From contig NZ_NGNR01000004.1 in assembly GCF_002198115.1 (NCBI RefSeq), forward strand, positions 265,011-329,010: DNA of 64,000 bases, in the 5' to 3' direction. The stretch comes from Robiginitalea sediminis. Lineage in GTDB: Bacteria > Bacteroidota > Bacteroidia > Flavobacteriales > Flavobacteriaceae. Shown here in pieces: positions 30,016 through 37,326 of this stretch (position 1 is its first letter; each line of letters opens with the position of its first letter). A program made the translations under genes and the position numbers. The notes beneath the pieces were generated by a model that saw only the letters and a list, made by a program, of their open reading frames with translations, was not told where the DNA came from and did no database searches.

Positions 30016-30603
30016 ATGAAAAAGAAGTTCATCACCCTTGCCCTGGCCCTGGTAGCCGGAGCCGCCATGGCCACCGAGCCCACAGCCGAGGAGAAAAAGC
30101 AGGTCAATGCCGAAAAAAGCACGGTGACCTGGAAAGCCTACAAGGTAACCGGATCCCACACCGGGACGGTAGACCTTACATCCGGAGCCCTGATGTTCGA
30201 CAACGGCCAGCTCACCGGAGGAGAATTTGTGGTTAACATGACCTCCATGACCGCCACCGACCTGGAAGGCGAGTGGAAAGACAAGTTGGTAGGCCACCTG
30301 AAATCCGACGATTTCTTCTCTGTGGAAAAACACCCGGAGTCCAAACTGGTCTTTACCAGTGTGAAATCCAATGGGAAAAACTCTTACGAGGTAACCGGCG
30401 ACCTGACCATCAAAGGCATCACCAAGCCGGTAACCTTCGACCTGTCTGTGTACGGAAGTAAAGCTACCGCCACCCTGAAGGTAGACCGGGCCGAGTACGA
30501 CGTGCGTTACGGTTCCGACAGCTTTTTCGACAACCTTGGGGACAAGACCATCTATGATGAGTTCGACCTTGTGGTAGACCTGGAATGGGATCCTGCCAGC
30601 TAA
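30016..30603 (+). CDS. YceI-family periplasmic lipid-binding protein
   Basis: 195 residues. A signal peptide (about 1-20, cleavage near AMA/TEP) precedes a lipocalin-like barrel with STVTWKAYKVTGSHTGTV and the C-terminal YGSDSFFDNLGDKTI block of YceI. Family members bind polyisoprenoids or other lipids in the periplasm. It is the last gene before a strong terminator, in the MarR-controlled operon. Confidence 0.9.
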   Translation: MKKKFITLALALVAGAAMATEPTAEEKKQVNAEKSTVTWKAYKVTGSHTGTVDLTSGALMFDNGQLTGGEFVVNMTSMTATDLEGEWKDKLVGHLKSDDFFSVEKHPESKLVFTSVKSNGKNSYEVTGDLTIKGITKPVTFDLSVYGSKATATLKVDRAEYDVRYGSDSFFDNLGDKTIYDEFDLVVDLEWDPAS

Positions 30604-30612
30604 ATGCGCTTT

Positions 30613-30643
30613 GAAAGCCGGCTACAGGCCGGCTTTCTTTTTT
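30613..30643 (+). terminator. Terminator after yceI
   Basis: GAAAGCCGG and CCGGCTTTC (9-bp stem, 7-nt loop) followed by TTTTTT, 10 bp after the yceI stop. Confidence 0.85.
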
Positions 30644-30654
30644 AAGGGCTTTGA

Positions 30655-30685
30655 TTTGGAAAATGACATTTCCTTTCTATATTTG
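30655..30685 (+). promoter_or_regulatory. trp operon promoter
   Basis: TTTG (30655-30658), 19 bp, TATATTTG (30678-30685): a perfect Bacteroidota promoter. The start point would be near 30692, so the leader peptide may be translated from an almost leaderless RNA. Confidence 0.75.
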
Positions 30686-30691
30686 AGGCTC

Positions 30692-30748
30692 ATGAAACCG
30701 AAATTCCATACAAACTGGTGGTGGACCCAAACTCAAGGCGAATCGTGA
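30692..30748 (+). CDS. trpL: trp operon leader peptide
   Basis: An 18-codon open frame, MKPKFHTNWWWTQTQGES, with three adjacent Trp codons at positions 9-11. It lies between the trp promoter and a terminator in front of trpE. This is the standard layout of ribosome-mediated attenuation: stalling at Trp codons when charged tRNA-Trp is scarce lets transcription continue. The ATG comes only about 7 bp after the -7 element. Confidence 0.85.
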   Translation: MKPKFHTNWWWTQTQGES

Positions 30749-30809
30749 CCTGAGCCCAGCCCGTTTGTATCCCGAATAAAAGGCTTGTCTGTCACGACAG
30801 GCCTTTTTT
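30743..30809 (+). promoter_or_regulatory. trp attenuator: antiterminator arms and terminator
   Basis: The terminator stem is AAAAGGCTTGTC (30778-30789) with GACAGGCCTTTT (30796-30807), 12 pairs with one G-U, followed by T residues. TCGTGAC (30743-30749), which includes the leader stop codon TGA, is the exact complement of GTCACGA (30791-30797) in the terminator loop and right arm. A ribosome stalled on the Trp codons (30716-30724) leaves TCGTGAC free to pair and break the terminator; one at the stop codon covers it. Mechanism inferred from this geometry. Confidence 0.75.
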
Positions 30810-30834
30810 CATGGAATACCTAAACGCAACGAAG

Positions 30835-32232
30835 ATGTCTTATTTGCTCAAGACGTACTATAAAAAGATCCTGGCCGATACCATTACCCCGGTTAGCGTC
30901 TACCTGAAGATCAGAGACCGGTTCCCGGGGAGTATTCTGCTGGAGAGCAGCGACTACCACGCCAACGACAATTCGTTTTCCTATATCTGCTGTAACCCCA
31001 TAGCCACCTTCCGGGTACAGGGGGAAATGCTGTACAGGACCTATCCGGACGGCAACTCCGACGATATGCCCATTGGCCCGGAAACGGACGTGGCACTGGA
31101 AATCCACCGGTTTGCAGGGCAGTTCCGCGTGGATGAAAACGACTTTAAGTTCATCAACAGCGGGCTTTTTGGCTATATGGGGTACGACGCCGTGCGGTAT
31201 TTTGAAGATATCCGCATCGAGAAGAAGCCGGATTCTCCTGAAATCCCGGACATCCATTACGCCGTCTACCAGAACATCATCGCCATCAACCACTTTAAGA
31301 ACGAGGCCTATATTTTCGCCCATAGTTTTAAGGGGGAAAACAACATCCCGGAACTCGAGCAGCTCCTCTCGGTACAGACCTTCGCCTCCTACCGGTTTAA
31401 AAAGGAGGGGGCGCCCCAATCCAACCTTGAGGACCAGGCCTTCCTGGAACAGGTGGCCCTGGCCAAAAAGCACTGTGCCCGGGGAGATGTTTTTCAGTTG
31501 GTGCTCTCCCGCCGGTTTTCACAGGGTTTTAAAGGGGATGAATTCAATGTATACCGGGCCCTGCGCTCTATAAACCCATCCCCCTACCTGTTTTACTTCG
31601 ACTATGGGGATTTCAAGATTTTCGGAAGCTCTCCGGAAGCACAATTGGTGGTGAAGGACGGAAAGGCCGAAATCCACCCCATTGCCGGGACCTTCCGCCG
31701 TACGGGGAACGATGAGCAGGACGCCGAACTGGCCAAAAAACTGGCCGCAGATGAAAAGGAAAACGCCGAGCACGTGATGTTGGTAGACCTGGCCCGCAAC
31801 GACCTCAGCCGCAATGGCAATACCGTGCAGGTAGAGACCTACCGTGAGGTGCAATACTTTTCCCATGTGATCCACCTGGTGTCTAAGGTCACGGGGATGA
31901 AAAAACCGGATATCCCCACCATGAAAGTCGTGGCCGATACCTTCCCGGCCGGGACCCTGAGCGGGGCTCCCAAACATATGGCCATGCAACTGATCGAGCG
32001 TTACGAAAAGACAAGCCGTACCTATTACGGCGGGGCCATCGGGTTTATGGCCTTCGACGGGGATTTCAACCACGCCATCATGATCCGGACCTTCCTGAGC
32101 CGCAACCATACCCTCTTCTACCAGGCGGGCGCCGGACTGGTTGCCGCCTCGGACCCCGAGGCCGAACTCCAGGAAACCTACAACAAGCTCGGGGCGCTCA
32201 ACCAGGCCCTGGATATCGCAGAAACCCTATAG
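30835..32232 (+). CDS. trpE: Anthranilate synthase component I
   Basis: 465 residues from ATG 30835. It makes anthranilate from chorismate with TrpG. The feedback-inhibition motif LLES-X10-S is intact (residues 35-49), and the chorismate-binding core shows SPEAQLVVKDGKAEIHPIAG, MLVDLARNDLSR and GALSGAPK-like FPAGTLSGAPK. An ATG at 30811 is in frame but lies one base after the terminator T-run, so 30835 is preferred. Control by Trp is therefore likely at both enzyme and RNA level. Confidence 0.95.
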   Translation: MSYLLKTYYKKILADTITPVSVYLKIRDRFPGSILLESSDYHANDNSFSYICCNPIATFRVQGEMLYRTYPDGNSDDMPIGPETDVALEIHRFAGQFRVDENDFKFINSGLFGYMGYDAVRYFEDIRIEKKPDSPEIPDIHYAVYQNIIAINHFKNEAYIFAHSFKGENNIPELEQLLSVQTFASYRFKKEGAPQSNLEDQAFLEQVALAKKHCARGDVFQLVLSRRFSQGFKGDEFNVYRALRSINPSPYLFYFDYGDFKIFGSSPEAQLVVKDGKAEIHPIAGTFRRTGNDEQDAELAKKLAADEKENAEHVMLVDLARNDLSRNGNTVQVETYREVQYFSHVIHLVSKVTGMKKPDIPTMKVVADTFPAGTLSGAPKHMAMQLIERYEKTSRTYYGGAIGFMAFDGDFNHAIMIRTFLSRNHTLFYQAGAGLVAASDPEAELQETYNKLGALNQALDIAETL

Positions 32233-32233
32233 G

Positions 32234-32803
32234 ATGAAACAGGTTCTGGTCATAGACAATTACGACAGCTTCACATACAACCTGGTCCATTACCTGGAAG
32301 AGCTGGGGTGTGCCGTTACGGTACGTAGGAACGACAAGATCACCCTGGAAGAGGTAGGCGGGTTTGACCGCATCGTGCTCTCCCCGGGTCCCGGAATCCC
32401 CGATGAAGCCGGCCTGCTTAAGGAAATCATCGCCCGATATGCGTCCGGGAAACGCATTTTCGGGGTATGCCTGGGCCAACAGGCCATTGCAGAGGTTTTC
32501 GGCGGACATCTTTTGAACCTGGACCAGGTCTACCACGGGGTGGCGACCCCGGTAAAAGTGGTCCTGGAGGATTACCTCTTTAAGGGACTCCCTGAGGTAT
32601 TCCAGGTAGGGCGGTATCATTCCTGGGTGGTAGCTCCGGACCTGCCTGAAACCCTGGAGGCCACCGCCCTTGATGAGGCCGGCCAACTTATGGCCTTGCG
32701 CCATCGGAAGTACGATGTGCGGGCGGTGCAGTTCCACCCGGAATCCGTACTCACCCCACAGGGGAAGAAAATACTGGAGAACTGGCTAAACGAAGAAGCA
32801 TGA
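32234..32803 (+). CDS. trpG: Anthranilate synthase component II (glutamine amidotransferase)
   Basis: 189 residues from ATG 32234, one base after the trpE stop. It is a class I amidotransferase that supplies ammonia from glutamine to TrpE. Seen: DNYDSFTYNLVHYL at the start, nucleophile Cys79 in GVCLGQQ, and the C-terminal His-Glu pair in VQFHPESVLT. It ends with a 4-bp overlap with trpD. Unlike some bacteria, TrpG is not fused to TrpD. Confidence 0.95.
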   Translation: MKQVLVIDNYDSFTYNLVHYLEELGCAVTVRRNDKITLEEVGGFDRIVLSPGPGIPDEAGLLKEIIARYASGKRIFGVCLGQQAIAEVFGGHLLNLDQVYHGVATPVKVVLEDYLFKGLPEVFQVGRYHSWVVAPDLPETLEATALDEAGQLMALRHRKYDVRAVQFHPESVLTPQGKKILENWLNEEA

Positions 32804-33795
32804 AACAGACCCTGAACAAACTCATCGAACACCACCTGCTCACCCGGGAAGAAGCCCGGCAGGTGCTTGTCGATATTGCTGCCGGGCAGTATAACACCAG
32901 CCAGACCGCCGCGTTCCTGACGGTCTTTATGATGCGCAGCATCAGCACGGAAGAACTGGAAGGGTTCCGGGATGCGCTGCTGGAACTCTGCAAGGCTGTG
33001 GATTTGGATGGGTATGCCCCTATAGACCTTTGCGGTACGGGCGGGGATGGTAAAAACACCTTCAATATCTCCACCCTGGCATCCTTTGTAACTGCAGGTG
33101 CGGGCATCCCGGTCGCCAAGCATGGCAACTACGGGGTATCCTCCAAATGCGGGAGCAGCAACGTCATGGAATTCCTGGGTATCCGCTTTACGGACGATAC
33201 CGATTTTCTGAAGCGGTGTATGGACCAGGCGGGCATCTGCATCCTGCACGCCCCCCTCTTCCACCCGGCTATGAAACAAGTAGCGCCTATCCGCAGGGAA
33301 CTGGGGGTAAAAACCTTCTTCAACATGCTGGGGCCCATGGTAAACCCGGCCTTCCCGAAATACCAGATGGTGGGGGTCTTTAACCTGGAGCTGGCCCGCA
33401 TGTACGGATACCTGTATCAGAATACAGACAAACAGTACAGCATTTTGCACGCCCTGGACGGGTACGACGAAATCTCCCTGACCGGAGACACCAAATGGAT
33501 CGGGCATGCGGGAGAAGGGATCCTCAGGCCTGCGGATTTTGGCCTGGATACCCTGGAGGCCACGGAGATCCATGGGGGTGATGCGGTGGAAGATGCGGCC
33601 CGGATTTTCCTGAATGTCCTCCAGGGCAAAGGAACCCAGGCCCAGAATGCCGTGGTTTGCGCCAATGCGGGGGTGGCCATTGCCACGGTACGCGGGGGAA
33701 CGCCCCTGGAAGGCTACCAGGCAGCCTGCGAGTCCCTGGAATCCGGCAAGGCCCTGGAGGCCTTCCGGGCACTGCAGAAACTTAGTATGACCTAG
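32800..33795 (+). CDS. trpD: Anthranilate phosphoribosyltransferase
   Basis: 331 residues. It joins anthranilate to phosphoribosyl pyrophosphate. The PRPP-binding loop is seen as DLCGTGGDGKNTFNIST (about 72-88), followed by KHGNYGVSSKCGSSNV and the HALDGYDEISLTG block. Its ATG overlaps the trpG stop (ATGA). The next gene, trpC, is 112 bp away, the only long gap in the operon. Confidence 0.95.
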   Translation: MKQTLNKLIEHHLLTREEARQVLVDIAAGQYNTSQTAAFLTVFMMRSISTEELEGFRDALLELCKAVDLDGYAPIDLCGTGGDGKNTFNISTLASFVTAGAGIPVAKHGNYGVSSKCGSSNVMEFLGIRFTDDTDFLKRCMDQAGICILHAPLFHPAMKQVAPIRRELGVKTFFNMLGPMVNPAFPKYQMVGVFNLELARMYGYLYQNTDKQYSILHALDGYDEISLTGDTKWIGHAGEGILRPADFGLDTLEATEIHGGDAVEDAARIFLNVLQGKGTQAQNAVVCANAGVAIATVRGGTPLEGYQAACESLESGKALEAFRALQKLSMT

Positions 33796-33815
33796 GTTAT
33801 GAATTAAAAAATGCC

Positions 33816-33875
33816 CTGCAAGGTTGGTGCAGGCCTGGCCTGTACCTTGTAAGCGGGGCGGGGGGGGGCACCCCC
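33816..33875. repeat. Intergenic repeat element, copy B
   Basis: 60 bp in the trpD-trpC gap, similar to 4021-4076 after prfC (shared CTGCAAGGT, GGCCTGTA, a G run and CACCCCC). It lies inside the trp operon transcript, about 20 bp after the trpD stop, and may form RNA structure there. Confidence 0.6.
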
Positions 33876-33907
33876 AAAGAACAAAGACTTGAATAAAAAA
33901 GAATAAC

Positions 33908-34693
33908 ATGAATATCCTGGAGCGTATCGCCGCAGACAAGCTAAGGGAAGTGGCCTTAAAGAAGCAGGTAACTCCGGAAGGGGAGCTCCGGCAGCACGCG
34001 CTGTTCACCAGGCCCACAAAGTCGTTGAAAGGCTCCCTTGAGCGCCTCCCATATGGAATCATTGCAGAACATAAACGACGTTCCCCATCCCGTGCCGTGA
34101 TCAACCAGGGCATTGCCCTTCCGGAGGTGGTCTCCGGGTACTCGGCAGCCGGGGCCGGCGGAATCTCTGTCCTGACCGACGGGCTTTATTTCGGGGGTTC
34201 CCTGGAGGACCTGCAAATGGCGAGGGCTGCAACCGATTTGCCCCTGTTGCGAAAGGAATTCATCCTGGACACCTACCAGATTACCGAGGCCAGGGCCTAT
34301 GGTGCTGATGCTATCCTGCTGATTGCTGCCATGCTGGATCCGGGCCACCTGGCCGACCTGGCTCAGTCTGCCCGGGCCCAGGACCTGGAGGTGTTGGTGG
34401 AAGTGCACGACCGGGAGGAACTGGAAGCCGTCCGGGACTGCGGGGCCGATCTTTTTGGGGTGAACAACCGGAACCTGAAAACCTTTGAGGTGGACCTGGA
34501 TACCAGCCGATCCCTTGCCGGGGCCATCCCGGACGGGGCCCTGAAGGTCTCTGAAAGCGGCCTGGGCCGCCCTGAAGAGATCCGCGAACTCCGCCAGCTG
34601 GGGTACCAGGGTTTTCTCATGGGGGAATCCTTCATGAAAACCCCTGACCCGGGCGCCGCCCTCGTTGAACTGATAAAATCCCTGCACGCGTGA
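33908..34693 (+). CDS. trpC: Indole-3-glycerol phosphate synthase
   Basis: 261 residues, a TIM barrel that closes the indole ring. Seen: IIAEHKRRSPSRAVI near residue 52 (catalytic Lys), LLRKEFILDTYQI, LVEVHDREELEAV, FGVNNRNLKTFEVD and SESGLGRPEEI with the expected catalytic Glu, Asn and Ser. It overlaps trpF by 4 bp. The two are separate genes here, not fused as in E. coli. Confidence 0.95.
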   Translation: MNILERIAADKLREVALKKQVTPEGELRQHALFTRPTKSLKGSLERLPYGIIAEHKRRSPSRAVINQGIALPEVVSGYSAAGAGGISVLTDGLYFGGSLEDLQMARAATDLPLLRKEFILDTYQITEARAYGADAILLIAAMLDPGHLADLAQSARAQDLEVLVEVHDREELEAVRDCGADLFGVNNRNLKTFEVDLDTSRSLAGAIPDGALKVSESGLGRPEEIRELRQLGYQGFLMGESFMKTPDPGAALVELIKSLHA

Positions 34694-35361
34694 AGCTCAA
34701 GGTTTGCGGCATGAAATACAACCCCGCCGAGGTAGCAGCCCTGAACCCGGATTACCTCGGGTTTATTTTCTGGGAGCCCAGTCCGAGGCACTTCGACGGA
34801 CCCGCACCCGAATGGGAGGAAGATGGGCCGGTCCGCGCAGGTGTTTTCGTCGATGCCCAAATCGGGGAAGTCCTGGAGAAGACGCGGGACTTTTCCCTTG
34901 GGATGCTCCAGCTGCACGGGAGTGAAAGCCCGGAATACTGCCGGGAACTCCAAAGCAGGCTCCGGGGCGCAGGGCTGGATGCCGCCTCCCTGGTGAAAGC
35001 TTTCGCCGTAGGGCCGGACTTCGATTTTGGCAAATTAGCGGCCTATCAACCGGTCTGCGATGCCTTTCTTTTCGACAGCCGTGGGCCATTACCCGGCGGG
35101 AACGGGAAGGTCTTCGACTGGTCCCTGTTGGAAGACTACGGGTTGGAAACACCGTTTTTCCTCAGCGGTGGCATCGGACCGGAGTCTATCCAGGCCCTGG
35201 AACATTTCCTAAGCATGCCCGTATCGCAGCGGTGTATAGCCCTGGATATAAACAGCGGGTTTGAAACCGCACCGGGACAAAAGGATATAACCCTGATAAC
35301 GGAATTTATGAATGAAGCCTTCTGGCAAAATGCCAAAGGCGAAAAGCACGAGAAGCGATGA
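34690..35361 (+). CDS. trpF: Phosphoribosylanthranilate isomerase
   Basis: 223 residues, a TIM barrel carrying out the Amadori step before TrpC. The start [10 protein letters not shown] holds the catalytic Cys, and [31 protein letters not shown] and [10 protein letters not shown] match the family, with the catalytic Asp in FLFDSR. The extra C-terminus is Lys/Glu-rich. Coupled to trpC and trpB by 4-bp overlaps. Confidence 0.93.
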
Positions 35362-36545
35362 GTAAGTACCACGTGGATGAATATGGGTTTTACGGAGAAT
35401 TCGGAGGTGCCTTTATCCCTGAAATGCTCTACCCCAACGTAGAAGAGCTCCGGCAGCACTACCTGGATATTATGTATACGGACGAGTTCCGGACAGAATT
35501 CCGCCAGTTGCTGCGGGATTACGTCGGCAGGCCCACCCCCCTGTACCTGGCCGAACGGCTTTCCGAGAAATACAAGAGCAAAATTTACCTCAAACGGGAA
35601 GACCTCTGCCATACCGGGGCGCACAAGGTAAACAACACCATTGGCCAGATCCTGATGGCCAAAAGGCTGGGTAAAAAACGGATAATCGCGGAGACCGGTG
35701 CCGGGCAGCACGGGGTAGCCACGGCCACGGTTTGCGCCCTGATGGGGCTGCCCTGCGTGGTCTATATGGGCGAGGTGGATATTGCCCGCCAGGCGCCCAA
35801 TGTGGCCCGGATGAAGCTCCTGGGAGCAGAAGTCCGCCCGGCAACCTCCGGCAGCCGTACCCTGAAGGATGCTACCAATGAGGCGATCCGGGACTGGATC
35901 AACAACCCGGAGGATACCCACTACATCATCGGATCGGTGGTGGGACCCCACCCCTACCCGGATATGGTCGCCCGGTTCCAGGCGGTCATCTCCGAGGAAA
36001 TCCAGGACCAACTCCTGGAAAAAGAGGGCCGGAAAGACCCGGATTACCTCGTGGCCTGCGTTGGTGGCGGGAGTAACGCAGCCGGCACCTATTACCATTA
36101 CCTGGATCGGGAATCCGTTAGTATTATCGCCGCGGAAGCCGCGGGGAAAGGGATAGAAACGGGGGAAAGCGCCGCAACATCGGCCCTGGGACGTACGGGG
36201 ATTATCCATGCCAGTAAAACCCTGCTGATGCAAACCGCCGACGGGCAAATCACCGAACCCTATTCCATTTCCGCCGGCCTCGATTACCCCGGTGTGGGGC
36301 CCATGCACGCCCACCTGTTCAAAACCAAAAGGGCAGACTTCATCCCGGTCACAGACCACCAGGCCATGGAGGCCGGGCGCGAACTGGCCGAACTGGAAGG
36401 GATCATCCCGGCCATCGAATCTTCCCACGCCTTCGCCGTTTTGGCCATGGGCCACATCCCGGAGGGTAGCCTGGTGGTAATCAACCTTTCCGGAAGGGGT
36501 GACAAAGACCTGCAAACCTATATAGATTACTATTCACTTGCCTGA
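35358..36545 (+). CDS. trpB: Tryptophan synthase beta chain
   Basis: 395 residues. A PLP enzyme that joins indole and serine. The PLP Lys is K90 in [10 protein letters not shown], the phosphate cup is [10 protein letters not shown] (about 233-242), and RNA-independent marks such as [13 protein letters not shown] are intact. It belongs to the standard TrpB1 type. It overlaps trpF by 4 bp; trpA begins 4 bp after its stop. Confidence 0.97.
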
Positions 36546-36549
36546 AGAC

Positions 36550-37326
36550 ATGGAAAAATCCAAGAACCGAATCCTTACCACCCTCGAAAAACCGGGCAAA
36601 CTCCTTTCCATCTATTTCACGGCGGGTTTCCCGAACCTTGAGGACACTGTCCCGGTACTGGAGGCCTTGCAGAAAGCAGGCGTAGATATGGTCGAGATCG
36701 GTTTACCTTTCTCGGACCCCCTGGCAGACGGTCCCACCATCCAAAGGAGCTCTACCCGCGCACTGCGCAACGGGATGACCACCGAACGCCTTTTTGAGCA
36801 ATTGGCGCATGTAAGGAAAATGATTCACATCCCTCTTGTGCTGATGGGTTATTTCAACCCGGTTTTGCAGTATGGGGTGGAAGCCTTTTGCCGCAAATGC
36901 CAGGAGGTGGGGATTGACGGACTTATCCTTCCGGACCTGCCGCTGGAAATCTATGAGCGGGATTACAAACACCTGATGGAACCCTATGGCCTGAGTATGG
37001 CCTTTCTGATAAGCCCCCAGACCAGCGAGGACCGGGTACGACGCATCGACCAGGCCTCCACCAGCTTCATCTATATGGTAAGCTCCGCAAGTACCACCGG
37101 GGTGCAGGATGGCTTTGGTCAAGGACAGGAAGGGTATTTCAGGCGCATCGAATCTATGGGTCTGGAACACCCGCAAATCGTGGGCTTTGGCATTAGCGAT
37201 TCCAAAAGCTTCCAGACTGCCACCGAAAGGGCCAAAGGGGCTATTATCGGGTCTGCCTTTGTCCGGATGCTGGACAGCGAAGGCATTGGGGGCATTGAAG
37301 CATTTATCCGAAACATAAGACCATGA
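36550..37326 (+). CDS. trpA: Tryptophan synthase alpha chain
   Basis: 258 residues from ATG 36550. It splits indole-3-glycerol phosphate and passes indole to TrpB. The catalytic residues Glu49 (VEIGLPFSDP) and Asp60 (ADGPTIQ) are present, as are VSSASTTG and VGFGISDSKSF. A TTG at 36538 inside trpB is a less likely start. Its stop overlaps the next small gene (ATGA). Confidence 0.95.
   Translation: MEKSKNRILTTLEKPGKLLSIYFTAGFPNLEDTVPVLEALQKAGVDMVEIGLPFSDPLADGPTIQRSSTRALRNGMTTERLFEQLAHVRKMIHIPLVLMGYFNPVLQYGVEAFCRKCQEVGIDGLILPDLPLEIYERDYKHLMEPYGLSMAFLISPQTSEDRVRRIDQASTSFIYMVSSASTTGVQDGFGQGQEGYFRRIESMGLEHPQIVGFGISDSKSFQTATERAKGAIIGSAFVRMLDSEGIGGIEAFIRNIRP

Follow-up and report, generated by a model that had tools for sequence, protein, structure and literature searches.

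The closest described counterpart of the element analysed here is the Bacteroid-trp RNA, entered in Rfam as RF01692, 'Bacteroidete tryptophan peptide leader RNA' (Weinberg et al. 2010, Table 1, PMC2864571). Its occurrence before trp in F. psychrophilum has been mentioned (PMC6414381), and transcriptomes of F. psychrophilum have suggested leader-peptide attenuation before amino-acid operons (PMC9723704). Rfam has listed the RNA as a structure since 2010, and the printed alignment shows one stem, around the Trp codons. Because the model stops at GGCUUGUC, the 5' arm of the terminator, the partner of the antiterminator described below lies outside it. No mechanistic study of Bacteroid-trp RNA or of this pairing was found in the open literature that was searched.

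The window (the whole stretch of 64,000 nucleotides of the Robiginitalea sediminis genome that was analysed) contains a trpEGDCFBA operon at 30835-37326, in which TrpE was checked against Pfam and the remaining trp products were named from their translations. The longest open reading frame for trpE begins at 30811, directly after the U-tract of the terminator, and relatives align from 30835; the alignment makes 30835 the more likely start of the gene. The upstream gene (30016-30603), YceI-like by eye, is followed by a terminator-like inverted repeat at 30616-30643 that separates it from the promoter of the trp leader. A profile search with Trp_repressor (PF01371), which did match control genomes, gave no match in the 3.30-Mb genome, and a trpR gene that would place the operon under the TrpR repressor was not found there. 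The elements between the upstream gene and trpE, and the evidence for each, are as follows.

30678..30685, + strand: TATATTTG, putative Bacteroidota -7 promoter box (sequence; F. johnsoniae spacing rule)
30692..30748, + strand: reading frame of the leader peptide, MKPKFHTNWWWTQTQGES and stop (sequence; search for WWW/WW leader reading frames in relatives)
30708..30715, + strand: ATACAAAC, segment 1 of the protector stem, immediately 5' of the Trp codons (folding; counterpart of the RF01692 stem)
30716..30724, + strand: three adjacent Trp codons TGG TGG TGG, the putative sensor (sequence; an A site placed here gives the antiterminator in silico)
30735..30739, + strand: AAGGC, outermost antiterminator arm in this species, with partner GCCTT at 30801-30805 (folds)
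30743..30749, + strand: TCGTGAC, 5' arm of the antiterminator, holding the leader stop TGA at 30746-30748 (conservation, folds, covariation)
30752..30756, + strand: GAGCC, inner antiterminator arm, with partner GGCTT at 30782-30786 in the 5' arm of the terminator (folds)
30763..30770, + strand: GTTTGTAT, 3' half of the protector stem (folding; RF01692 alignment)
30778..30809, + strand: intrinsic terminator with a 12-bp stem (30778-30789/30796-30807), loop TGTCAC (30790-30795) and a U6 tract (30804-30809) (folding; alignment of relatives)
30791..30797, + strand: GTCACGA, 3' arm of the antiterminator (conservation, covariation)
30835..32232, + strand: trpE, first gene of trpEGDCFBA (Pfam check of TrpE; alignment of relatives starts at ATG 30835)

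The RF01692 covariance model matches the window along its whole length (1-131) with 35.9 bits, at an E value of 0.01 for 301 bases, short of the gathering score of 49 bits. Eighteen of 20 tested flavobacterial relatives score above this cut-off, and the window aligns with flavobacterial relatives at the same place before trpE. The element lies directly before trpE of trpEGDCFBA, the closest records come from Robiginitalea and other Flavobacteriaceae, and UGG UGG UGG adjoins ATACAAAC, which is paired with GTTTGTAT and aligned to the stem of the model. Judged from sequence, the window element is a divergent homologue of Bacteroid-trp RNA (RF01692) below the curated cut-off, and it is very probably a ribosome-mediated transcription attenuator of trpEGDCFBA.

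The initial annotation described an 18-residue leader with three adjacent Trp codons followed by a terminator in front of trpE. Both are present: the reading frame runs from ATG at 30692 to TGA at 30746-30748 and is conserved in relatives, and the 12-bp stem with its U6 tract precedes trpE, so that a Trp-rich leader and an intrinsic terminator stand before the first structural gene as in classical attenuation. In F. johnsoniae the distance from the -7 box to the transcription start is 4-5 nt (PMC6847099). With this spacing, the predicted transcription start for TATATTTG is near 30690 and thus 1-2 nt upstream of the leader ATG; the box itself lies 6 nt before that ATG, for a predicted 5' untranslated region of about 2 nt. 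The same box-spacing prediction yields 5' untranslated regions of at most 4 nt in 105 of 170 relatives. Leaderless mRNAs make up 5.5% in F. psychrophilum (PMC9723704), and the near-leaderless state of the trp leader mRNA, newly proposed here, is a prediction only.

The complementarity claimed between TCGTGAC and GTCACGA is exact, and GTCACGA comprises five bases of the terminator loop and the first two bases of the terminator 3' arm. Within a single sequence this match is only suggestive, because 4% of shuffled versions of the leader segment contain a perfect 7-nt complement; conservation in relatives confirms that the predicted TCGTGAC:GTCACGA pairing is far beyond chance. Two flanking helices absent from the initial annotation accompany it in the window: an inner pairing that includes a flanking base on each side, (T)GAGCC:GGCTT(G), and the extension AAGGC:GCCTT (30735-30739:30801-30805).

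Regions upstream of trpE were compared in 80 genomes and 110 further family-level loci. A search for reading frames found a Trp-rich leader (WWW or WW) in 190 of 191 distinct Flavobacteriaceae regions, and a terminator was parsed in 189 of these 190, the remaining one also having a terminator, with a GACGAGCC arm; one parse (L022) hit an unrelated place and was excluded. TCGTGA is present with at most one mismatch in 176 of the 177 scored distinct leaders (164 exact), and the single leader with no motif within one mismatch is L178 (CTGTGA). On the terminator side, 169 of the 176 leaders have TCACGA as the partner, and the 5' side of the terminator loop is variable in length and sequence. A lack of conservation of the leader frame or of the pairing would have counted against the initial annotation; TCGTGA:TCACGA proves nearly invariant in the 176. 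Adjacent Trp codons are retained in every scored leader, and the motif starts 27-28 nt after the first of them in 172/176.

The position of the leader stop is less constant. It falls inside the motif in 137/176 leaders, downstream of it in another frame in 29, and before it in 10. The proposal that the stop itself forms an antiterminator arm thus holds for the window and for those 137 relatives, but the stop is not essential to the arm, being elsewhere in 39/176. A strict requirement for a stop in the arm is ruled out, for these 39 relatives break the rule while TCGTGA stays put. What is conserved is an RNA segment with a constant spacing from the Trp codons, in which a stop codon is usual and not required.

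Seven relatives (L009, L011, L016, L020, L031, L032 and L079) have the attenuator 391-477 nt from trpE and not adjacent to it. In L009 (2177-2461) a small gene for a GIY-YIG endonuclease (PF01541, E 3.6e-17) lies between the terminator and trpE, and each of the other six has a similar reading frame just before trpE.

Covariation in the antiterminator helix, which had been suggested as a check, was found. Two other families of the class (f11 and f12), retrieved with the Rfam model and here called the Bacteroidales side, a label inferred from sequence, have the helix GTCGTAAG:CTTGCGAC, with compensatory changes relative to TCGTGA:TCACGA. Pair 5 is G-C in 175/176 Flavobacteriaceae and A-U in 32/40 Bacteroidales-side sequences; on that side a motif G faces C in 5/8 cases and a motif A never does (Fisher p 9e-5, not corrected for relatedness). 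The change from G-C to A-U goes together with a change of the leader stop from TGA to TAA, so that where TCG TAA replaces TCG TGA the terminator loop has the matching change. Pair 7 is C-G in the group of the window; 43 other flavobacteria have A-U there, 32/40 outgroup sequences have G-C, and many flavobacteria have a G-A mismatch. In the set of 90 distinct motif-partner pairs, 91.6% of cells are paired and 37 cells carry double changes, against 7.4 +/- 4.3 in shuffles (0/500), shuffle counts that are not probabilities, as many of the sequences are related. Every slid register is lower in both percentage paired and covariation score. Partners on the Bacteroidales side were picked by a pattern that fixes pairs 2-4 and leaves pairs 5-7 free, with manual correction of three of them. 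The same logic, carried by other sequences, seems to persist in more distant trp leaders: by eye, L222 (same order, other family) has AAAGTCTT in the leader and AAGACTTT in the terminator 5' arm, and L224 and L225 (class, f3) have GGCAGCC and GGTTGCC.

In an alignment of 129 sequences, the base pairs of the terminator are either kept or covary. Applied to the full alignment, RNAalifold recovered the terminator only and no alternative structure, because the alternative structures compete and the register of the protector stem differs by 3 nt between clades; folding was therefore done per sequence. For transcripts that end at TCACGA, with the leading edge of a stalled ribosome placed 19 nt beyond the first Trp codon, the minimum-free-energy fold contains the antiterminator helix in 175/176 leaders, compared with 31/176 when no ribosome is present and 0/176 with the ribosome at the stop. 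Once the 3' arm of the terminator is out, the antiterminator is kept in 5/176 and the terminator is otherwise the more stable fold; in most relatives, therefore, the switch would have to be kinetic. The window is among the exceptions, its extra antiterminator stability being due to AAGGC:GCCTT and (T)GAGCC:GGCTT(G). At equilibrium, when the A site is placed on each of the three Trp codons in turn, its full transcript has P(antiterminator) 0.90, 0.94 and 0.95; the value is at most 0.01 at codon 12 and all later positions up to the stop, and P(terminator) is 1.00 without a ribosome. These window values hinge on the assumed front edge of the ribosome: all three Trp codons give the antiterminator at +10 to +14 nt, and with larger assumed edges the best position lies one or two codons farther upstream. 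The expectation that a stalled ribosome frees the arm and a finishing ribosome hides it is thus borne out in silico, and an exclusive antiterminator favoured by stalling is predicted, with covariation in addition.

The ribosome-free transcript of the window is predicted to form an 8-bp stem, ATACAAAC:GTTTGTAT, with P 0.99. This competing stem, absent from the initial annotation, corresponds to the single stem that the RF01692 consensus shows in its partly printed alignment. In relatives, the motif is paired with the leader codons that separate it from the Trp codons, as a rule CTTACG with CGTGAG; the mean probability that the motif is so paired is 0.81, compared with 0.55 when those codons are shuffled, and sequestration exceeds the shuffled mean in 126/129 relatives. 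In silico, then, a protector prevents antitermination when no ribosome stalls, as in classical attenuation. The locus had been described as a compact form of attenuation with fewer RNA segments than that of E. coli. Segments 1:2, 2:3 and 3:4 are all present, with 1:2 predicted in the window as well as in the family, and this description therefore fails; a compact three-segment form is rejected in view of the 1:2 structure.

From the conserved and covarying elements and the predicted folds, we infer that the leader is translated and that stalling changes readthrough in the following way. When charged tRNA-Trp is scarce, the ribosome would wait with its A site on one of the Trp codons (30716-30724), masking the 5' part of the protector and leaving the RNA from 30735 onward free. 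TCGTGAC could then pair with GTCACGA in the terminator loop while its flanks pair with the terminator arms, which would block the terminator from closing and let RNA polymerase continue into trpE. With ample tryptophan, the ribosome would reach the stop and cover TCGTGAC, and the terminator would form. If no ribosome were present, the protector (1:2) would hold the region and the terminator would form too.

The compact form of the initial annotation would be a two-state attenuator made of the stop-codon arm and the two terminator arms, with no protector (1:2). The antiterminator can indeed arise from the stop-codon arm and the terminator alone, a ribosome at the stop suffices to block it, and the window lacks the CTTACG:CGTGAG protector of its relatives. 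The 8-bp stem predicted at P 0.99 in the ribosome-free transcript, as the counterpart of the RF01692 stem, nevertheless speaks against a switch of only two states, as does the pairing of the motif with leader codons in relatives well above the shuffled level, and such a switch is considered unlikely. Stronger objections apply to a protein, TRAP-like or repressor-like, that would read the TCACGA loop or TCGTGA and leave the leader reading frame incidental. Both hexamers are nearly invariant in Flavobacteriaceae, beyond what pairing needs, as a protein site might be; outside that family, however, they change together, which is expected of pairing and not of a protein site. Adjacent Trp codons in every scored leader, the fixed distance between these codons and the motif, and a genome in which no TrpR was found also argue against such a reader, and its probability is judged very low.

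Hardly credible, and the least probable of the alternatives, is that TCGTGA has been kept only as the C-terminus and stop context of the leader (Ser-stop), with the loop complementarity as a side effect. In 137/176 relatives the leader does end at the TGA of the motif, as this explanation would have it, but in the 29 leaders with the motif in another frame and the 10 with the motif after the leader stop, both its position and its sequence are kept. The loop half, moreover, is non-coding, is nearly invariant, and changes with the motif outside Flavobacteriaceae. Ribosome-mediated attenuation with a protector, an antiterminator and a terminator is accordingly the preferred reading.

What is new at the level of sequence and prediction is an explicit, covarying antiterminator and a leader mRNA predicted to be near-leaderless; the mechanism is ordinary, the family is known, and the understanding of attenuation in general is unchanged. 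Naming the antiterminator turns amino-acid attenuation in a phylum that lacks Shine-Dalgarno sequences into a precise hypothesis that mutations can probe, and yields a better model for finding divergent members of the Bacteroid-trp family. A broader idea, tentative and rather doubtful at present, is that in Bacteroidota the stop codon (TGA or TAA) co-evolves with the terminator loop as a built-in part of the attenuator, and that one clade reads the leader from a near-leaderless mRNA. If this were true, the ribosome would load at the 5' end of the RNA without a Shine-Dalgarno sequence, and release at the stop codon together with loading at the 5' end would set the timing of the switch.

Comparison with known systems places the locus within familiar designs. 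Actinobacterial trp attenuators have complementary conserved triples common to antiterminator and terminator (Seliverstov et al. 2005, PMC1262725). They resemble the present element in their double or triple UGG leaders and classical alternative hairpins, and differ in their conserved sequences (gGCC-rGCy-GGCC), with no stop-codon arm noted in the passages considered (PMC1262725). Bacteroid-trp RNA shares with the window element its position before trp genes in Bacteroidota, a leader with Trp codons, the same stem and the same GGCUUGUC start of the terminator. E. coli trpL has the same 1:2, 2:3 and 3:4 logic: its Trp codons are at segment 1, and a stalled ribosome frees segment 2. In trpL the stop codon separates segments 1 and 2; here it is usually part of the 5' arm of the antiterminator. 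The 3' partner here consists of the terminator loop and parts of both terminator arms, and the leader mRNA, in contrast to that of trpL, is predicted to be almost leaderless.
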